This document shows, one piece after another, positions 9,209-62,296 of a stretch of 64,000 nucleotides of DNA. Made by a program: the position numbers and the translations under genes. The stretch comes from Bacteroidales bacterium (lineage in GTDB: Bacteria; Bacteroidota; Bacteroidia; Bacteroidales; F082). Numbering within the stretch: the first letter of the stretch is position 1; every line of letters begins with the position of its first letter. The notes beneath the pieces are model-generated. The model did not search any database. It had not been told where the DNA came from and was given only the letters and a program-made list of their open reading frames with translations. The DNA is taken from assembly GCA_017553625.1 (NCBI GenBank), contig JAFZKP010000047.1:62001-126000 (forward strand). The letters are read 5' to 3'.

Positions 9209-9231
9209 CAGTCTGAAATCAATCAATTACA

Positions 9232-11298
9232 ATGAGTCAAAATATTTCAAAACTTAGGAACATCGGTATAGCCGCACATATCGATGCAGGAAAGACCACG
9301 GTGTCGGAGCGAATTCTGTTCTTCACTGGCGTGAACCGCAAAGTCGGTGAGACGCACGACGGACAGGCCACCATGGACTTCATGAAACAGGAGCAGGAAC
9401 GCGGTATCACCATCGCTTCAGCAGCCATCACGGCGCACTGGAACGATTATCAAATCAACTTAATCGACACTCCCGGTCACGTCGATTTCACCGTTGAGGT
9501 GGAACGTTCATTGAGAGTCATCGACGGAATGGTGGCTGTGTTTTGCGCTGTCGGAGGCGTGCAGCCGCAGAGTGAGACGGTATGGAACCAGGCGGACAAA
9601 TACCGCGTGCCAAGAATCGCATTCGTCAACAAGATGGACAGAACCGGCGCTGACTTCAACGAGGTCGTGAACCAGATGAACAAATACCTCGGTGCCAATG
9701 CGGTGCCGTTGCATCTGCCGATAGGCGTGGAAAACACCTTCGAGGGAATGATTGACCTCGTCAACATGAACTCGGTCATTTTCAAGGATAAAGAACGCAT
9801 CGTCGGACCAATCCCAGAGAATATGATGGAACAGGCTTTGGCAGCACGTCAGAACCTCATCGAACACGTCGCCGACTTCGACGATGACATTGCGGAGCTT
9901 TATCTTGCCGAAGAAGAGATTCCGCTCGACAAACTGAAAGAAGCCATCCGCAAGGCGACCATCAAACTTATGATGGTGCCGGTTTTGTGCGGCTCAGCAT
10001 ATAAAAACAAAGGAATTCAATTACTTCTCGACGCAATTGTCGACTACCTGCCTTCACCAAAGGACCTCGGTGCCATCATCGCACACGACCCTTACGACGA
10101 AGAGAAGACCTGCCAGAGAAACCCTATCGAGAGCGAACCTTTGTCGGCACTGGCGTTCAAGCTCATCAACGACCCGTATGTAGGTCAGCAGACGTTTATT
10201 CGCGTTTTCAGCGGCAAGCTCACCAACGGAATGACCGTATACAACACAAACAAAGGCAAGACGGAGCGCATCGGCCGTATTTTCCGCATCAAAGCGAAGG
10301 AACGTGAGGAGATACAAGAGGCTTCGGCAGGTGAAATCGTGGCTCTCGTGGGCATGAAGATAACGCGTACCGGAGACACCTTGTGCGCTGAGGACGCCCC
10401 TCTCCTACTTGAAAACATACACATCCCACCAGCGGTCATAGAGATGAAGGTGAACCTCGACGACAAGAAAAACAGAAACAAACTCGGCGAGGCCTTGGCT
10501 AAACTTTGCAACGAAGACCCGTCGTTCCGCGCACATTTCGACGAGGAGACCGAAGAGACCATCATCGCTGGCATGGGCGAGCTGCATCTTGAAATCATCG
10601 TCGACCGTCTTAAAGACGAGTTCAAGGTTCCAGTTACCGTTGGCGCACCGTCAGTGTCGTTCAGAGAGACGATAACATCTCAGTTCGAGTGCAACTACCG
10701 TTTCGTGAAACAGACTGGCGGCAAGGGTCAGTTTGCGCACACTGTCATCCGTTTCGAGCCTAATCCAGGCAAGGGATTCGAGTTCGTCGACATCACCAAG
10801 GGCGGCGTGATTCCGAAGGAGTTCATCCCTTCAGTGGAGAAAGGTCTTCAGGCAGCTATGAACAAAGGACCGTTTGCGGGATATCCTGTCGTGGACGTGA
10901 AATGCGTCCTCGTGGACGGCAGCTCCCACCCCGTCGATTCCAGCGACATGGCGTTCCAGCTCTGCGCCCAGATGTGCTTCAAGCAGGCGTTCATGAAAGC
11001 GAATCCTGTCCTTCTCGAGCCGATGATGAAGGTCGAGGTGAACACTCCTGACGACTACATCGGCAACGTGACAGGCGACTTGAACAAACGCCGCGGACGT
11101 ATCGAGGCGATGCGCCGTTTCCGCAAAGGCTCGCAGAAACTCGACGCTTTCGTGCCGTTGATGGAGATGTTCGGTTATGCAACAGCCTTACGCAACCTCT
11201 CATCAGGACGTGCCAACTACTCGATGGAGTTCCACAACTACGCCCCGATGCCAAAAGACAAACAGGACGAAATCGTAAAGGAAAGAAACGAGAAATAG
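9232..11298 (+). CDS. fusA: Translation elongation factor G
   Basis: 688 aa. GTPase signatures are clear: AHIDAGKT at 15-22, the switch I segment [17 protein letters not shown] from 79 and NKMD at 133-136. Domains II-V follow in the normal order, with [15 protein letters not shown] in domain IV and [13 protein letters not shown] in domain V. The protein moves tRNA and mRNA through the ribosome after peptide bond formation and may also take part in ribosome recycling. It stands alone and not in the str operon with rpsL/rpsG/tuf, so it may be one of two EF-G copies in this genome. The paralog cannot be seen here. Confidence 0.93.
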
Positions 11299-34873: not shown

Positions 34874-36337
34874 ATGCTTGATTTAAACAAAGAAATAATA
34901 TTTGCATCTTCTGAACCCGAGGTGTCACGTACCATTTCAAGCCTAATAAAACAAGGGAAGTTGCGTAAAATATCACCGCGTCTTTACACTACAAACATGA
35001 TAGACAGTGTTGAAAGCATCGTTCGTCGCAACATTCTCAATATAATTATGTGGCGTTTCCCAGGTGCAATAATCAGCCATCGTAGTGCACGAGAGATGCG
35101 TCTCACTGCCAACGGATATTTTTTTCTTACAAGTAGTTACAATAAAAAGATAACCGATCTGCCAGGTGTGACTGTTGTGGTGAACAAAGGTCCTGAAGCC
35201 GATAAAAACGACATGATATTTGGTCAGATGTTCATCGCTGGCGAATACCGATGGATGCTTGAAAATATGCAGGAATCTCGTAAATCTGGCGACGAGTCAA
35301 AGATTCTGCCTGTTGAAGTAATAGAAAAAAAACTCGGTACTGTGCTCCTTGCCAGTGGCGAAGACGGTCTGAACACCTATCGTGATACTTTAAGAGAAAC
35401 CGCAGAAAGATTGGGTATGCAGAAAGAGTTTCAAAAAATCAACAACCTAATCTCTGCTTTGCTTGCCACACACGATTCCAACACTTTAAAAACACCATAC
35501 GCCCAAGCTCTGGCTGTCGGTTTAAAATACGATGAAAGACGCAAGCATTTGTTCGAAACGCTCTACGACGCTTTGCAGGAGCAGCACTTTGTTCCACGAC
35601 AAATACAGTCGCAGTCCGAGACAGAATATCGCGATATAGCTTTCTTCGAAAGCTACTTTTCAAATTACATAGAAGGAACTGTATTTGAGATTGGTGAGGC
35701 CAAACAGATAGTTGAAACCGGCATCCCGTTAGCGCACCGCAACGAGGATTCTCACGATATTCTTGGAACATTCCAACTCGTTTCAAACCGTAGCGAAATG
35801 ATGCGCTATCCTAAAACACCTCAAGAATTGTCGGATATTCTACAACGCCGACACGCTATTTTATTGTCTGGCCGTCCCGATTTGAATCCTGGTCATTTCA
35901 AGCAGGTCAACAATCGTGCTGGAAACACTGAATTTGTCGATGTCAAGCTAGTTCAGGGCACACTTGAGATTGGTTTCGATTACTATTCCGCACTAACATC
36001 ACCACTTGCCAAAGCCATCTACATGATGTTTCTTATCAGCGAAACACATCCATTCAATGATGGTAACGGTCGCACAGCACGTGTGATGATGAACGCTGAA
36101 CTTTTCAGAACTGGTGAAGCCAAAATCATAGTTCCTACAGTTTATCGAGAAGACTATCTGTTGTCGCTTCGCAAATTGAGTCGTCAAGGCGATCCTTATG
36201 CCTATATCAAAGTTATGGAAACAATGCATAATTTCAGCAGCACTCTTTACGGTCGTTCCTTCGATGAGATGTTATCATATCTTATAAGTTGCAATGCTTT
36301 TGAAGAACCTGAAAACGCAAAGTTAAGACTAAAATAA
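34874..36337 (+). CDS. Fic-domain protein with AbiEi-like winged-helix N-terminus
   Basis: 487 aa. Residues about 1-100 resemble the AbiEi-type antitoxin winged helix (SRTISSLIKQGKLRKISPRLYTTN, then ISHRSAREM). The Fic core lies near 340-470 with HPFNDGNGRTAR at 392-403; His392 is the catalytic base and the GNGR loop binds phosphate. SNYIEG at 263-268 matches the inhibitory [ST]xxxE[GN] motif, so the ATP site may be self-blocked. Fic enzymes usually transfer AMP to a protein target. The N-domain might bind the 19-bp repeats in its own promoter. It stands alone with no separate antitoxin gene and lies just after tRNA-Arg. A role as a stand-alone toxin-antitoxin or defence protein is inference. 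Confidence 0.8.
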   Translation: MLDLNKEIIFASSEPEVSRTISSLIKQGKLRKISPRLYTTNMIDSVESIVRRNILNIIMWRFPGAIISHRSAREMRLTANGYFFLTSSYNKKITDLPGVTVVVNKGPEADKNDMIFGQMFIAGEYRWMLENMQESRKSGDESKILPVEVIEKKLGTVLLASGEDGLNTYRDTLRETAERLGMQKEFQKINNLISALLATHDSNTLKTPYAQALAVGLKYDERRKHLFETLYDALQEQHFVPRQIQSQSETEYRDIAFFESYFSNYIEGTVFEIGEAKQIVETGIPLAHRNEDSHDILGTFQLVSNRSEMMRYPKTPQELSDILQRRHAILLSGRPDLNPGHFKQVNNRAGNTEFVDVKLVQGTLEIGFDYYSALTSPLAKAIYMMFLISETHPFNDGNGRTARVMMNAELFRTGEAKIIVPTVYREDYLLSLRKLSRQGDPYAYIKVMETMHNFSSTLYGRSFDEMLSYLISCNAFEEPENAKLRLK

Positions 36338-37267: not shown

Positions 37268-38476
37268 TCAGAATTGGAAATAAATAAAACTGGCACCTTT
37301 CAATTCACCAAGAAGAAGTATATATGCAATCATCAAGCCAGTAAAAATAATACTTACTAAAAGTTTCTCGGAGTGTATAAAGTGCCTATTACGATTATAC
37401 TCATCATTAAATTCTTTGTAAAAAAGAATTAGTATGGAAAGTAACCCTGTGGTGAAAGGACCATAGCTTCCCATAAACAAGCTTCCTGATCCGGTCCACA
37501 TTTGTTGAAATAGTCCAAAGAAATCTCCAATTGTTGCCGAACGGAAAATCATATCACCAATGACCCACAAAACAAAAGTCAAACCCCTTCTTGTCCACTT
37601 ATATAATTCATTGTTTTTTAGTTTATATTTTTTTTCAAACTTTTTTCTGGGAGCATCTATTTCCAAAATTGCCACCAGAATATTCTTAGACGCGACGCAA
37701 ATGATAATGCCGCGTTGTTTGAGTTTCTTCACCCACATCTGGAACTCGGTGAAAGCTTTACCTATACCCAGTCCGTGACCAAGTTGGATACCTTCCAGCC
37801 CGTCATCACCAATCACACCACCCCAAACAGTGTTATCAAGATCAAGAATCAAGCATTTCTTGAATTGGCCCTTGATCGCACATACAATGTCCATCACACG
37901 ACTTGCCACGTATGGCAGCGCATCGATGTTCAGAATCATTTCCGTGCTAGTATAGACATTGGCGGCAAACATCTCGTCGCGTCCAAATTTGTTTTGAAAA
38001 CCAGCAATATCACAAATAAACAGGTTCGGGAACTGCTGCGAGAGGTGCATTAGTTCATAATTCAGTTTGCGAATATGATAGGTAAAGGAAGATTCAACTT
38101 TGTTTGCGTAACTGCCAAATACCGTGTCTTCTATTTCAGGATAGTTGAAGTAGATTATCTTTTTGCTGGCAAGTGCAGGATTGGCACAAATGCTTGTTAC
38201 AAATCGCAGACGCTCTTCAGCAAGCATGACTTGCTGTTCTTGAGGCAAAGTACTGTGGTGTTCACCAAGTTTATGAGTGCTTTGGAATACCACAATGAAA
38301 TCTGCATCGAACTGGTACAGGTCACTGGTCGGGTCCATAAACTGGCGTTCCACCTGGTTGTATTCAGCTTCAAAGAGGTCAATGTTGTAGCCTCGTTCAA
38401 CACCTGTTCCTTGAATAGCTGTTGCAAGGAATTGAGTAGCGGTATCCCCAACCAAAGCCAATTTAACTTTTGGGAG
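37268..38476 (-). pseudogene. Chimera of FkbH-like HAD domain and MBOAT C-terminus
   Basis: The frame is open from 38476 but no ATG exists; TTG 38461 is the only candidate start, and the natural N-terminus is missing (LPKVKLALVGDTATQ follows a stop). Up to about residue 260 it is FkbH-like: a GDTATQ start, IVVFQSTHKLGEH, and the HAD loop ILDLDNTVWGG (residues 205-215). At residue 260 (base 37682) it changes abruptly to the end of a membrane-bound O-acyltransferase: WTRRGLTFVLWVIGDMIFR, then hydrophobic segments and the typical FIYFQF terminus. The FkbH C-terminus, any acyl carrier protein and the MBOAT catalytic part with its His are absent. A deletion fused the two remnants in frame. It is probably non-functional. 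Confidence 0.8.
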
Positions 38477-38543
38477 CTAGGTCTTTAGACATCTATATGT
38501 CAGATCCCCCATGACAAATAGTTAACAAATAACAACTTGAAAC

Positions 38544-38835
38544 ATAAAAGAAAAGCGTGGGAATCTGCACCCTTGCCTATCCCACTCATTGAGGCTCTCG
38601 CATTGCCTATTGCTCGAGGATAAGCAATGTCGAAGCCCACGCAGATTATATATATTAATAGGTATCAGGGCGACACCCTAATATATGACAAATCCCATTG
38701 ACATCAAACCACTGCTTTATCTTGCGAGCAATTACGAATTTGCGAGATTCCAATGAGTCGCAGATAAAACATTAGCACAACGTCTTTCAAATATGTTTGT
38801 CACCCCCCTTCCCAATTACATGGGTCCGACGAATG
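38544..38835 (-). ncRNA. Candidate structured RNA of about 290 nt, family not recognised
   Basis: On the minus strand a promoter-like pair (TTTG at 38872-38869, 19-bp spacer, TGTTTTTG at 38849-38842, one mismatch to consensus) would start transcription near 38835. Helices seen: 38716-38727 with 38758-38768 (11 pairs, one bulge), GCAA/TTGC inside it, AGGG/CCCT at 38667-38679, GCGTGGG/CCCACGC at 38555-38561 with 38636-38642, CATTGC/GCAATG at 38601-38606 with 38624-38629, and a competing GTGGGA/TCCCAC at 38557-38562 with 38580-38585. The loop of AGGG/CCCT (38671-38675) is complementary to 38628-38632, a possible pseudoknot. After the last stem comes TTTTCTTTTAT, like a terminator. It could be a discrete RNA or an attenuated leader of the broken O-acyltransferase locus. 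The rest of the 500-bp gap shows no gene. Confidence 0.5.
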
Positions 38836-38990
38836 ACAACGCAAAAACAACAATTTTTTTGTATTGTACAAAAATTTTTTAATAAATCAGGAGCATTAAT
38901 TCAAAAGTGTATTTTAAAACAAAATACAAATCGTTGAATTACAATAATTTATATTCACAATAACATTTTCATAAATTGTTTCAGCATTTA

Positions 38991-41759
38991 TTATCTCAAA
39001 AACAACTCTACAGTACTTGCCGCCTTTCCTCTTCTTGTTACCTGAATCTGCGCCGGGATGCGCTCTTTCAAGCTGTCGACGTGCGAGATTATTCCCACCT
39101 TTCGACCGAATTTCTGCATGTTTCCGAGGGCTTGCACTGCCATTTCGAGACTTTCTCCGTCCAAGGTGCCGAAACCTTCGTCGATGAAAAGCATGTCGAT
39201 GCTGAGGTTTTCGTCGTTAAGCGACGCCAACCCCAATGCTAACGCCAAGGAAACGAGGAACGTCTCACCGCCCGAAAGCGACGATGCACTACGCATCTCC
39301 CCTCCCATTTCCTTATCCATCACCATGATTGCCAACGAGTTAGAGTAACAAGTAAGCTCATATCGCTGACTCAGTTTGCGAAGGAAATAATTCGCCTGGT
39401 CAAGGAGAATGCGCATGGTATAGGCTTGCGCGACATCACGGAAATTGTCGCCTGCAGTTGTGCCGATGGCGTTGGCAAGTTGAGTCCAAAGCGACAACTT
39501 AACGGTTTTTGCCTGTAAATCGTCCTTTGCAGCCTGCGCTGAAGCCGAATTTTGAGTGTTCAAAGACAGTTTTGTGCGAATATCTGACAACTTAACGTTA
39601 ATAGATTGCTTAACGACATTCAAATGCGTCAATTTATCTTGATATTCAACTTTTGTAACGGCATCATTTTCAAGAGCATCGACGATTTTTTTCCTTTCGC
39701 CGCTTTTACCGATAAGATTAGTCAAAACCTTAGTAAAACCAATCAAAATGGAGCCTTTATCAATATTGTTTCTCGTCGCGACTTTACCTTCAAACTCAAC
39801 TATACGTTCATATCCTTCGATTTGCTTGATTCCATTGGCAATCTCGTCAATTTTATTGATGTCAGAATCAACTTTTGAATATTCGTCGTTGAGATGCTTC
39901 CACCTGTATGCGAGCCTTTTTAACAGCGAATTATAATTGTTTTCTGCATCGTTTTTCAGCTTTTGAAGCCCCTTCAACTCCTCTTGGATATCACGGGCAG
40001 CAGCAATCTGTTTGTTAATCTCTTCAAGCTTGTTTTTCTCAACTGAAATCATTGATTCACAGTCGTTTAATCCCTTATCCAGACGCTCAATCTCATAAAC
40101 TGGTTTGCCATTGCATTCAGCCGTGAGGTTTTTAACAAGGTTTTCCAGCAGCTTTTTCTCATTTCCAATGCTTTTATTAAGCAGGTTTATCTCGCCTTCC
40201 GCCTTGTTTTTCGCGTCTTTTGCCTTTTCAAACGCATTTCTCGCCTCATTCCAAGCCGTTTCTATAGTTGCAAACAGAGAATCAACGACCTTCTCATCAT
40301 GATACTGATGCGAAGTGCTGCCACAAAGCGGACAAGGTTTTCCTTCTTCAAGTTTCGCACGCAGCGATTTCATGAAGTCAGCGACCATGTTTTTCTGAAT
40401 CTGATACTCCGAATCTTTGTCCTCAAAAGTCGTTTTTGTATTCTGAAAGTCTATCTCACATATATTAAAGTTTTGCTTTAATTTATCTAATTCAACTAAT
40501 TTATTATCAATTATTTGTTTCTTATTCAAATAATTGGTTAAAATCTGTTTCACGCCTAAACACTTGGTTCTCCAATTGCCAAGTTTTGTGAGTTCGTTGT
40601 TGTGTTCGTTATATTGATTCCTTAGTCCCTCCACATCAGCTTTTTCCAGCTTTTCATTACATTCATCATAAGCGGCGGTCGCATCATTCTTGGCATTTTC
40701 GGCTTCGGTGAGCATTATTGAAAGCTCAGATATGTCAGATTTACCATCATCTATTGTTGTCACCGAATTCCCGCCCTGCAACAGGCTCATAATCAATGGC
40801 ATTTTCTCTTTCAGCGACTGCATTCCCGATTGATCGTCGATCTGTATTTTCAGCTCATCACGTTTTTTTGATAAAACATTCTTGTCTTCAAGTATCTTTT
40901 CCAAAGACGCCTGTAAATCAGCGAGTTGCGATTTTGAAAAATCGATTTCCCTGTCTAAGCTTTCAATCATCTCAAAATTTCGGATTTGCGCCTCGACGGT
41001 TTTTATCTCATTTTCATTATCAGCCTGAAGTTTCTCGTTATTTGAAAGCTCTTCATTCAAAGAAGCGAGTTCTTCATCAGATAAAATATTCTTTGTCAAT
41101 GAGTTGTAAATTTCTAAGGCCTTGTCGACATCGTTTTTGGCATCGTTTTTGCGTCTTCCGACAATCTCAGCGATTTTCGAATACACCTCTGTTCCCGTCA
41201 GCATTTCAAGAATCTCGGTCTGTTTGGCTTTTTCTGATGTCAGGAACGTGTTGAATTGTCCTTGCGCGAGCATCACAGAACGGACAAACTGGTCGTATGT
41301 TAGCCCCACAAGCTCTGTAATCCTTTGATTTACAGTATCTATTTTTGTTTCAAGAACAATTCTATCTGTGCCCTTCACCACCTCGAGTTTGCGACGGTTT
41401 GTCATGTCGTATTTGCCGTTGCGCGTCCTGTGCATCTGCCATGTGGCGATATAAATCTCGTTTCCAACAGAGAACCACACCTCGGCTTTGCCGTCAGAAG
41501 TGCCTTTTCTGAGTGCGTTTGTGGTACTTTGCATGGTTGAAAGCCCGTTTTCAGTCTTCTCCTTGTTCCTGGTGTTCTCGTAACGCGGCGACTTATCATA
41601 CAAAGACAACGTTATAGCGTCCAAAATCGTCGATTTGCCGCTTCCGGTCTCGCCAGTGATGAGGAATAATGGTTCGTTTGCCAAAATGCCCTCAGAGAAG
41701 CTTATTTCGGCTTTTTCGATGGAATTTATGTTCTCGATTATGATTTTTTCAATTTTCAT
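38991..41759 (-). CDS. sbcC: SbcC-like SMC-type exonuclease subunit
   Basis: 922 aa from ATG 41759. GETGSGKST at 36-44 is Walker A; LAQGQFNTFLTS follows as in SbcC. Long coiled coils occupy the middle, with a CPLC zinc hook near residue 475 (KPCPLCGSTSHQYHDEK) for dimerisation. The C-terminal half-ATPase has SLSGGETFLVSLALALGLA (signature) and MLFIDEGFGTLD (Walker B). With SbcD it cuts hairpins and protein-blocked DNA ends. The start overlaps the sbcD stop by 4 bp (ATGA). It is a normal-length, intact gene. Confidence 0.94.
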   Translation of the reverse strand: MKIEKIIIENINSIEKAEISFSEGILANEPLFLITGETGSGKSTILDAITLSLYDKSPRYENTRNKEKTENGLSTMQSTTNALRKGTSDGKAEVWFSVGNEIYIATWQMHRTRNGKYDMTNRRKLEVVKGTDRIVLETKIDTVNQRITELVGLTYDQFVRSVMLAQGQFNTFLTSEKAKQTEILEMLTGTEVYSKIAEIVGRRKNDAKNDVDKALEIYNSLTKNILSDEELASLNEELSNNEKLQADNENEIKTVEAQIRNFEMIESLDREIDFSKSQLADLQASLEKILEDKNVLSKKRDELKIQIDDQSGMQSLKEKMPLIMSLLQGGNSVTTIDDGKSDISELSIMLTEAENAKNDATAAYDECNEKLEKADVEGLRNQYNEHNNELTKLGNWRTKCLGVKQILTNYLNKKQIIDNKLVELDKLKQNFNICEIDFQNTKTTFEDKDSEYQIQKNMVADFMKSLRAKLEEGKPCPLCGSTSHQYHDEKVVDSLFATIETAWNEARNAFEKAKDAKNKAEGEINLLNKSIGNEKKLLENLVKNLTAECNGKPVYEIERLDKGLNDCESMISVEKNKLEEINKQIAAARDIQEELKGLQKLKNDAENNYNSLLKRLAYRWKHLNDEYSKVDSDINKIDEIANGIKQIEGYERIVEFEGKVATRNNIDKGSILIGFTKVLTNLIGKSGERKKIVDALENDAVTKVEYQDKLTHLNVVKQSINVKLSDIRTKLSLNTQNSASAQAAKDDLQAKTVKLSLWTQLANAIGTTAGDNFRDVAQAYTMRILLDQANYFLRKLSQRYELTCYSNSLAIMVMDKEMGGEMRSASSLSGGETFLVSLALALGLASLNDENLSIDMLFIDEGFGTLDGESLEMAVQALGNMQKFGRKVGIISHVDSLKERIPAQIQVTRRGKAASTVELFLR

Positions 41760-61753: not shown

Positions 61754-62296
61754 ATGCCAGCAAAAATCAGATTACAGAGACATGGTAAAAAGGGTCAGCC
61801 TTTCTATCACATTGTAATTGCAGACGGTCGCGCACCTCGTGATGGTAGATTTATTGAAAAAATCGGAACTTACAATCCGGTGACAGTTCCAGCTGAGATC
61901 AATTTGAATTTCGACAAAGCTCTTGATTGGTTAAACAAGGGTGCTCAGCCTACAGACACAGTCCGTTCAATCCTTTCAAAGAAGGGTGTCATGCTCAAGA
62001 AGCACCTCATGATCGGTGTCAAGAAGGGCGCTATGACAGCAGAACAGGCAGAGGTCAAATTCCAGACATGGATGAAGGAAAAAGAAGCCAAGTTAGCTCA
62101 GGAAGTCAAGGCCAAGGTCGAGAAGAGCAGAGCTGACCAGAAGGCAAGAATCGAAGCAGAGAGCAAGGTCAATGCAGCACGCGCTGAAGCCATCGCCAAG
62201 AAACAGGCAGAAGCAGCAGCCGCGGCAGCAGCTGAAACAGCCGAAGCGACAGAAGAGGCTCCAGCAGCAGAAGAAACACCAGCTACCGAAGCTTAA
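61754..62296 (+). CDS. rpsP: 30S ribosomal protein S16 with long acidic extension
   Basis: 180 aa. The S16 core is the first 80-90 residues ([39 protein letters not shown], given here in part as [16 protein letters not shown]). After it comes a charged helix ([18 protein letters not shown]) and an Ala/Glu tail ([18 protein letters not shown]), a feature usual in Bacteroidota S16. It binds 16S rRNA during 30S assembly. The gene is alone, with no rimM or trmD after it as in many bacteria, and ends in a terminator. Confidence 0.96.

Follow-up and report, generated by a model that had tools for sequence, protein, structure and literature searches.

What a long, strongly folding RNA sequence does in front of a broken gene is the question raised by a minus-strand segment in the genome of a Bacteroidales bacterium (family F082; assembly GCA_017553625.1, contig JAFZKP010000047.1). 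The window, i.e. the whole stretch of DNA that was analysed (64,000 nucleotides, positions 62,001 to 126,000 of the contig), contains at 38544-38872 a sequence whose predicted minus-strand fold has an energy of -107.9 kcal/mol and a z-score of -4.68, a value reached by none of 100 shuffled sequences. In the initial annotation this segment was considered to be a regulated leader, a free RNA or a mobile-element RNA. Comparison with related copies indicates that positions 38496-38849 of the minus strand are one copy of a large multicopy structured RNA, which is probably a cis-regulatory leader of Bacteroidales acting by transcription attenuation.

Organisation of the RNA element in the window

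The element appears to extend beyond its U-run, to about position 38496, and the segment initially delimited stopped short of this end. Its parts are listed below in the order of transcription.

38842..38849, minus strand: -7-like promoter box TGTTTTTG, read from the sequence, with one mismatch to TANNTTTG, which we take to be the Bacteroidota -7 promoter box
38798..38838, minus strand: P0, a 5' hairpin TGTCA...TGACA, its complementary ends recognised by eye in aligned copies and unscored
38767..38784, minus strand: P1 hairpin, with a UGNNC loop able to form a pseudoknot with the 5' portion of T3
38755..38768, minus strand: strand 1, partner of strand 4 (rod base) or of strand 2 (the 11-pair hairpin of the initial annotation)
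38736..38749, minus strand: 5' strand of P3 (UCUCGCA) and a conserved AAUUC
38713..38734, minus strand: 5' strand of P4 and strand 2 (GAUAAAGCA)
38694..38705, minus strand: 5' arm of the apical stem (GAUGUCAAUGGG), differing in the window at one position from the consensus GUCCA
38650..38686, minus strand: variable A+U-rich hairpin, missing from about half of the aligned copies
38629..38642, minus strand: apex strand, beginning GCGUGGGC, partner of the 5' arm or of T3
38609..38628, minus strand: strand 3 (UUGCUUAUCC) and 3' strand of P4
38592..38604, minus strand: 3' strand of P3 (AUGCGAGA) and a conserved GCCU
38573..38587, minus strand: strand 4 (GAGUGGGAUAGGCAA), part of the rod base or 5' arm of a local terminator hairpin
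38555..38571, minus strand: T3 (GGUGCAGAUUCCCACGC), the shared strand, with strand 4, the apex, the P1 loop or P6 as partners
38545..38554, minus strand: U-run UUUUCUUUUA, terminator-like; a U-rich run is seen here by eye in 61 aligned rows
38496..38518, minus strand: P6, a hairpin after the U-run; its loop UGGGGGAUC is the complement of CAGAUUCCC in T3, with one G-U pair
37268..38461, minus strand: downstream gene remnant with a TTG start and an in-frame TAG six codons upstream

The main fold is a single long rod in which 38755-38768 is joined to 38573-38587, and which was absent from the initial annotation. The helices named there do exist in the sequence at the coordinates given, and their pairs were counted in 61 related copies.

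The downstream open reading frame (37268..38461) encodes an FkbH_N domain (residues 1-194) fused to a hydrophobic tail, for which no Pfam match was obtained; no ATG start was found. The broken gene is followed by two short ORFs without Pfam matches. Of the decayed O-acyltransferase locus in the initial annotation, Pfam confirmed just the FkbH_N domain; as in that annotation, we read the tail as derived from an MBOAT gene. The apical stem of the window copy has GUCAA, versus GUCCA in its relatives. Since the copy may be decaying together with its gene, the family was judged on its relatives. A Fic/DOC-family protein (Pfam) encoded on the plus strand at 34874-36337 of the window adjoins the decayed locus.

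Related copies and the conserved rod

A DNA search revealed two more copies in the window's own assembly, and a search of the genus gave matches, some of them short and weak, in 60 of 99 genomes, including that of the window. Forty further regions were taken and a profile search yielded 64 copies once duplicates and short hits had been dropped; the 61 complete ones were aligned. The copies used, here and below, were chosen from strong hits and multicopy genomes and do not represent a random sample. For these same-genus copies, designated type I, RNAalifold predicted the long rod and the P1 hairpin, with 52 pairs, 24 of which show changes on both sides. Paired cells amount to 98.2% in this alignment, compared with 87.0% after column shuffling and 38-47% with partners slid, and the covariation score is 0.404 versus 0.075-0.101 for the slid versions. 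In a test of our own, with a null of independent sites simulated along a FastTree tree, 18 of the 25,046 column pairs tested were significant at E <=0.05; 16 are rod pairs, and the other two are neighbours of rod pairs. Homologs with compensatory changes, the absence of which was initially proposed as grounds for abandoning the RNA, are therefore present, and the finding survived; the same changes oppose a coding-region remnant. Sequence comparison establishes, within its reach, that this RNA family exists, together with its rod, its promoter box, its position and orientation relative to genes, and the competing complementarities of T3.

The six-pair helix 38601-38629 of the initial annotation is kept in between 51 of 53 and all 61 copies. 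The proposed pseudoknot between 38671-38675 and 38628-38632 is possible in the window but is not a general feature: both sides are present in 27-28 of the 61 rows, where its pairs are kept in from 13 of 27 to 27 of 28.

The family was not recognised initially, and a search of Rfam 15 gave the same outcome: the window copy had no match at gathering score (the whole window produced only tRNAs), and at E up to 10 the region 38400-39000 had three matches, all far below gathering. Related copies, searched as sets of 20, 20, 20 and 11 loci at gathering and relaxed scores, matched no family over the length of the RNA; the matches obtained were tRNAs, one SAM-II riboswitch, chance-level ones and the DUF805b motif after the U-run. 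The SAM-II match (L202:3589-3648, on contig G322:C14; 52.8 bits, above gathering) is located on the opposite strand near one of the far type I copies. No description of the RNA was found among titles and abstract openings of the literature, in which subscription papers are thinly covered. A plain table entry in PMC8040213 is possible, and the terms 'Bacteroid', 'Prevotella', 'Parabacteroides', 'Porphyromonas' and 'DUF805' were all absent in a term search of PMC11109978. The RNA as a whole is apparently undescribed, while the DUF805b motif is already known.

A shorter form of the RNA

A shorter form of the RNA (type II), about 170-200 nt long and with its parts arranged in the order of type I, was recognised from seven weak matches in the genome of the window. 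An alignment of 31 copies contains 25 pairs, of which 18 show changes on both sides. Strand 4 was not recognised in type II, where the apex strand takes its place as the partner of T3. For 33 type II copies the complementarity of T3 to the apex of the same copy scored 21.0, versus 17.4 (sd 0.54) when copies were swapped (0 of 5000 permutations), and that of T3 to the 75 nt after the U-run scored 14.5 versus 12.9 (2 of 5000), the weaker signal; the automatic T3 cut was misplaced in some rows (e.g. L194, L211, L213 and L220), and retaining these rows makes the test weaker. As the T3:apex helix crosses the rod, it can form only as a pseudoknot or with the rod opened. A tandem pair of type II copies on the same strand is present at about 996-1382 of locus L242 (G242:C706:8995-9183 and 9216-9381).

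Promoter box and downstream genes

The gene context was inspected for 136 copies of both types, of which 132 were evaluable. In 127 of these 132 copies the RNA and the first ORF downstream share a strand, and in 115 this ORF starts at most 200 nt away, while the upstream gene is on the strand of the RNA in 82 of 130. An export-like N-terminus, as called by a crude hydrophobicity and lipobox rule of our own, characterises 99 of 127 downstream genes versus 27 of 130 upstream ones. The box TANNTTTG is found within 130 nt upstream of 118 of 134 copies, compared with 16 of 134 after shuffling, and within 90 nt after the U-run in only six of 134. In the window's own genome, 19 of 20 copies (that of the window excluded) precede an ORF of 90 codons or more that is no further than about 500 nt away on the same strand, the only one searched, and 14 of these ORFs are export-like. 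The same-strand placement of the ORFs, the export-like downstream genes and the occurrence of the box upstream of the RNA and not after its U-run argue that the RNA is a cis leader of genes for mostly exported or surface proteins.

A Pfam search of 107 downstream proteins, each cut to 350 residues, matched 44 families, including BspA-type LRR (5), VWA (5), carboxypeptidase-regulatory-like (3), CsgG (2), PEGA (2) and ECF sigma (2) proteins. MBOAT/DltB, acyl-CoA ligase, protein kinase, CoA transferase and SusC were each matched once. The downstream genes share no common pathway that could point to a ligand. Two PLD-like plus helicase proteins, possibly defence-related, take the place of surface proteins after type II copies of the window's genome (L255:544-3399 and L260:2-2740). 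The copies at L171, L129 and L050 precede cytoplasmic-looking systems, including a protein kinase (Pfam), and some of the proteins encoded there are presumably tubulin-like.

Distribution and copy number

Two covariance models were used, R1 for type I and R2 for type II; each finds some copies of the other type, so that their counts overlap. Within the family, R1 matched 76 of 173 genomes, and these all belong to the window's genus. In order-wide scans, with scoring limited to the best 5-6 candidates of each genome, R1 matched 81 of 393 genomes (47 of 206 genera) and R2 159 of 393 (97 of 206 genera). In a phylum sample searched with R1 only, matches were limited to three of 247 genomes, namely the window's own and two (of 246 others) that belong to the same class outside the order. 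This scarcity of type I suggests an invention of a Bacteroidales lineage. With deeper scoring, R2 gave 13-29 matches per genome in 11 genomes of the order, and five and three matches in the two genomes outside it; the 28 matches in the window's genome include at least one type I copy. The core pattern was found in 60 stretches of a named genome collection, of which 58 were titled as Bacteroidota of some rank and many came from ruminants.

Exact core patterns gave no hits in IMG/VR, the plasmid search found no copies, and a phage search with the window copy produced no hits. On a single unverified human faecal phage scaffold, the stretch MT835758.1:3065-3195 resembles 73% of a type II copy at 74% identity. 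Inverted repeats of at least 12 nt flank five of 133 copies, compared with 4.0% of 399 controls, which is no excess; with this signal absent, an invertible promoter was rejected. Pairs of copies within genomes G050, G188 and G345 are 81-92% alike across stretches of 196-430 nt. Some copies are about 500 bases or less from the end of a contig (G050:C13 and C15; G188:C54, C338, C497 and C597; G345:C120; G242:C564; G251:C24), where they perhaps act as repeats that break the assembly, or as leaders that recombine.

Competing pairings and a proposed mechanism

Four strands of the RNA may be combined in two schemes. One gives the rod, with 1:4 and 2:3, and the other joins 1:2 and 3:4. Hairpin 1:2, which was correctly reported in the initial annotation (38716-38768; 11 pairs and a single bulge), has its pairs kept in 51-61 of 61 copies and shows weak covariation (summed score 24.1 versus a null mean of -0.3, sd 3.4; 0 of 200 null sets). 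The pairs of helix 3:4 are kept in 57-61 copies, and its score was reached by five of 200 null sets.

T3, located just before the U-run, has several mutually exclusive partners, one of them past the U-run. Its pairing with the apex strand (38555-38642, seven pairs) is likewise as annotated, and is kept in 55-61 of 61 type I copies; it shows no covariation in type I, its score being attained in 175 of 200 null sets, but the equivalent pairing of type II co-varies. The competition of a second segment (38580-38585, in strand 4) for the same 3' segment was also claimed. This terminator stem of about six pairs with a loop of about 15 nt is indeed kept in 52-61 of 61 copies; it is near invariant, with a score attained in 93 of 200 null sets, so that covariation speaks neither for nor against it. 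The pseudoknot between the P1 loop (alignment columns 21-25) and the 5' part of T3 (columns 281-285) has a score of 29.1, which no null set of 200 reached, with single pairs kept in only 42-57 of 59-61 rows.

The predicted energies allow a switch, although they are no proof of one. In the window copy, nested alternative states are within about 2.4 kcal/mol of the best fold. The terminator state is lower in predicted energy than the rod-base state in 57 of 61 type I copies, the means being 1.8 and 4.7 kcal/mol above the best fold, respectively; the hairpin 1:2 and the apex:T3 pairing are on average 9.4 and 11.6 kcal/mol above it, which makes both states costly in most copies. When prefixes of the window RNA were folded, 1:2 was formed up to 170 nt, 2:3 at 185 nt, 1:2 again at 200 nt, 1:4 at 230 nt and strand 4:T3 at 245 nt. 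The best fold of the full 251-nt RNA, including the U-run, contains neither the rod base nor the terminator hairpin.

The following mode of action is proposed. Transcription would start at a promoter just upstream, as judged from the promoter box. In the nascent RNA, the local hairpin 1:2 would form first and would then be replaced by the long rod (1:4 and 2:3, with the apical stem closed); the rod is shown by covariation, and the folding order is taken from prefix folding only. The emerging T3 may then pair with strand 4 in type I, or with the apex strand in type II, directly before the U-run, and transcription would end. If the rod base and the apical stem hold, RNA polymerase would continue into the gene, whose start is usually no more than 200 nt away. 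P6 would offer T3 another partner past the U-run, either blocking the return to the terminator fold or acting on the translation start. As the predicted stability of the terminator fold somewhat exceeds that of the rod base, a stabilising ligand or protein would presumably switch the genes on. Termination at the U-run, the switching of folds, the decision by a ligand or protein and the guarding of read-through RNA by P6 are steps that we infer. The regulated leader, switch or attenuator of the initial annotation is well supported by the placement, the strand, the promoter box and the competing pairings.

The sequence beyond the U-run and alternative explanations

In most type I copies the U-run is followed by the P6 hairpin with its loop complementary to T3; by eye, P6 is seemingly missing from five of the 61 rows (L029, L054, L057, L061 and L066). 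A T3:P6 helix of at least seven pairs is found in 44 of the 61 copies, in 42 of these 32-48 nt past the aligned end, and is absent in 17. The loop tracks changes in T3, as in GAUUCCC/GGGAAUC, GACUCCC/GGGAGUC and GAUACCC/GGGUGUC. Complementarity of T3 to the post-terminator sequence of its own copy scored 18.2 in type I versus 15.6 for swapped copies (0 of 5000 permutations). Among 45 dissimilar representatives of 145 copies the scores were 16.3 and 12.9 (0 of 5000), and at least six pairs were formed in 36 of 45 own-copy combinations versus 53% of swapped ones; these tests account for descent solely through the choice of representatives. A small ORF starting from an AUG after the U-run is, by eye, unconserved in three copies.

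The DUF805b motif (Rfam RF02914, 35 nt, typed as cis-regulatory), which presumably came from an earlier survey of candidate RNAs, was matched above gathering 27-28 nt past the type II RNA, on its strand, at L208 and L209, and below gathering at a like position at L210 and L206 (genome G322). Like the RNA described here, it is located upstream of a gene. It corresponds to the part after the U-run only, and the rod of 170-290 nt, T3 and the U-run are outside that family. In at least genome G322, DUF805b is the tail of a larger leader. The short hairpin and AGAGUAGG tail of the 35-nt model are not matched by the window copy.

The position of P6 bears on the alternative that the terminated RNA of 170-290 nt is the main product, a base-pairing small RNA whose T3 pairs in trans with the P6 loops of its own and sister transcripts. 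This would account for a T3-complementary loop past the U-run, where a finished termination is beyond its influence, and agrees with the 13-29 matches in each of the 11 deeply searched genomes of the order and with the six pairs reached by 53% of swapped T3/downstream combinations, most of them between genomes. We consider it unlikely, however, as own-copy pairing clearly exceeds swapped pairing (0 of 5000), which is expected of contact in cis, the consistent gene placement also favours cis, and T3 would otherwise be locked in the terminator hairpin. A free RNA as the main role, one of the initial suggestions, is not favoured, and the terminated RNA would be a by-product.

Slightly more doubtful is a leader that acts on translation or mRNA stability, with a U-run that is no working terminator. 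Such an action is consistent with the location of P6 just before the start codon, with a T3:P6 contact that spans the U-run, with the loop of more than 50 nt between the apex and T3, unusual for an intrinsic terminator, and with the lack of a terminator hairpin in the best fold of the full window RNA; against it, U-rich runs recur directly after T3 in the aligned copies, and the terminator fold is preferred to the rod base in 57 of 61. More speculative again is a scheme of two products per locus from one start, in which the 3' strand of the terminated RNA might dock on its own and sister P6 loops, creating a cross-talking network that sets which surface proteins are co-displayed or mutually exclusive. 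A dispersed repeat or mobile-element RNA landing before genes by chance, as the many copies, the same-genome pairs 81-92% alike and the location of some near contig ends might suggest, is very improbable in view of an orientation tied to the downstream gene (127 of 132), flanking inverted repeats not in excess, exact patterns absent from IMG/VR, copies absent from plasmids, and compensatory changes that indicate selection on the RNA fold.

Transcription attenuation by a leader in cis remains the probable reading. If it is right, one of the main groups of gut and rumen bacteria has an overlooked large RNA regulon, with up to 29 matches per genome located before genes for LRR, VWA, CsgG, PEGA and other mostly exported proteins. 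The R1 and R2 covariance models provide the means to annotate such leaders, and which signal Bacteroidales read through them to alter their surface becomes a testable question.

Comparison with known systems

The HEARO/omega RNA or group II type, named initially as examples of a mobile-element RNA, was rejected: no Rfam match was obtained, and no linked nuclease or reverse transcriptase gene is indicated by the 25 families listed of the 44 matched by the 107 downstream proteins, none of which is a transposase, IscB or reverse transcriptase family. The fixed gene orientation, the lack of an inverted-repeat excess and the absence of exact patterns from IMG/VR and of copies from plasmids argue against mobile-element RNAs in general.

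FopS and GibS are paralogous small RNAs of Bacteroides and, according to PMC11697453, FopS RNAs are about 65-70 nt long, consist of a single-stranded 5' stretch and a terminator, are intergenic in nine of 14 cases and act in trans. The RNA described here shares with them its multicopy occurrence in Bacteroidales and its link to outer-membrane protein genes; its size and shape differ (170-290 nt, highly paired), and membership of the FopS family was rejected.

Riboswitches for c-di-GMP occur in many copies and control diverse surface functions. A copy-rich, surface-directed regulon is common to both, by analogy only; unlike c-di-GMP riboswitches, the RNA has no Rfam match, and GGDEF proteins were found in none of 10 copy-rich host genomes by a search that detected them in eight of 14 known genomes, which makes a c-di-GMP sensor unlikely.

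With riboswitches and attenuators in general the RNA shares its location in a 5' leader with conserved structure and the gene on the same strand, the U-run, the presence of one RNA before many operons, and mutually exclusive pairings that include an expression platform, the last seen at the sequence level only. It differs from them in the extra partner of the terminator strand past the U-run and in targets that are mainly exported proteins. An attenuator-like way of working is thus better supported than membership of any family.
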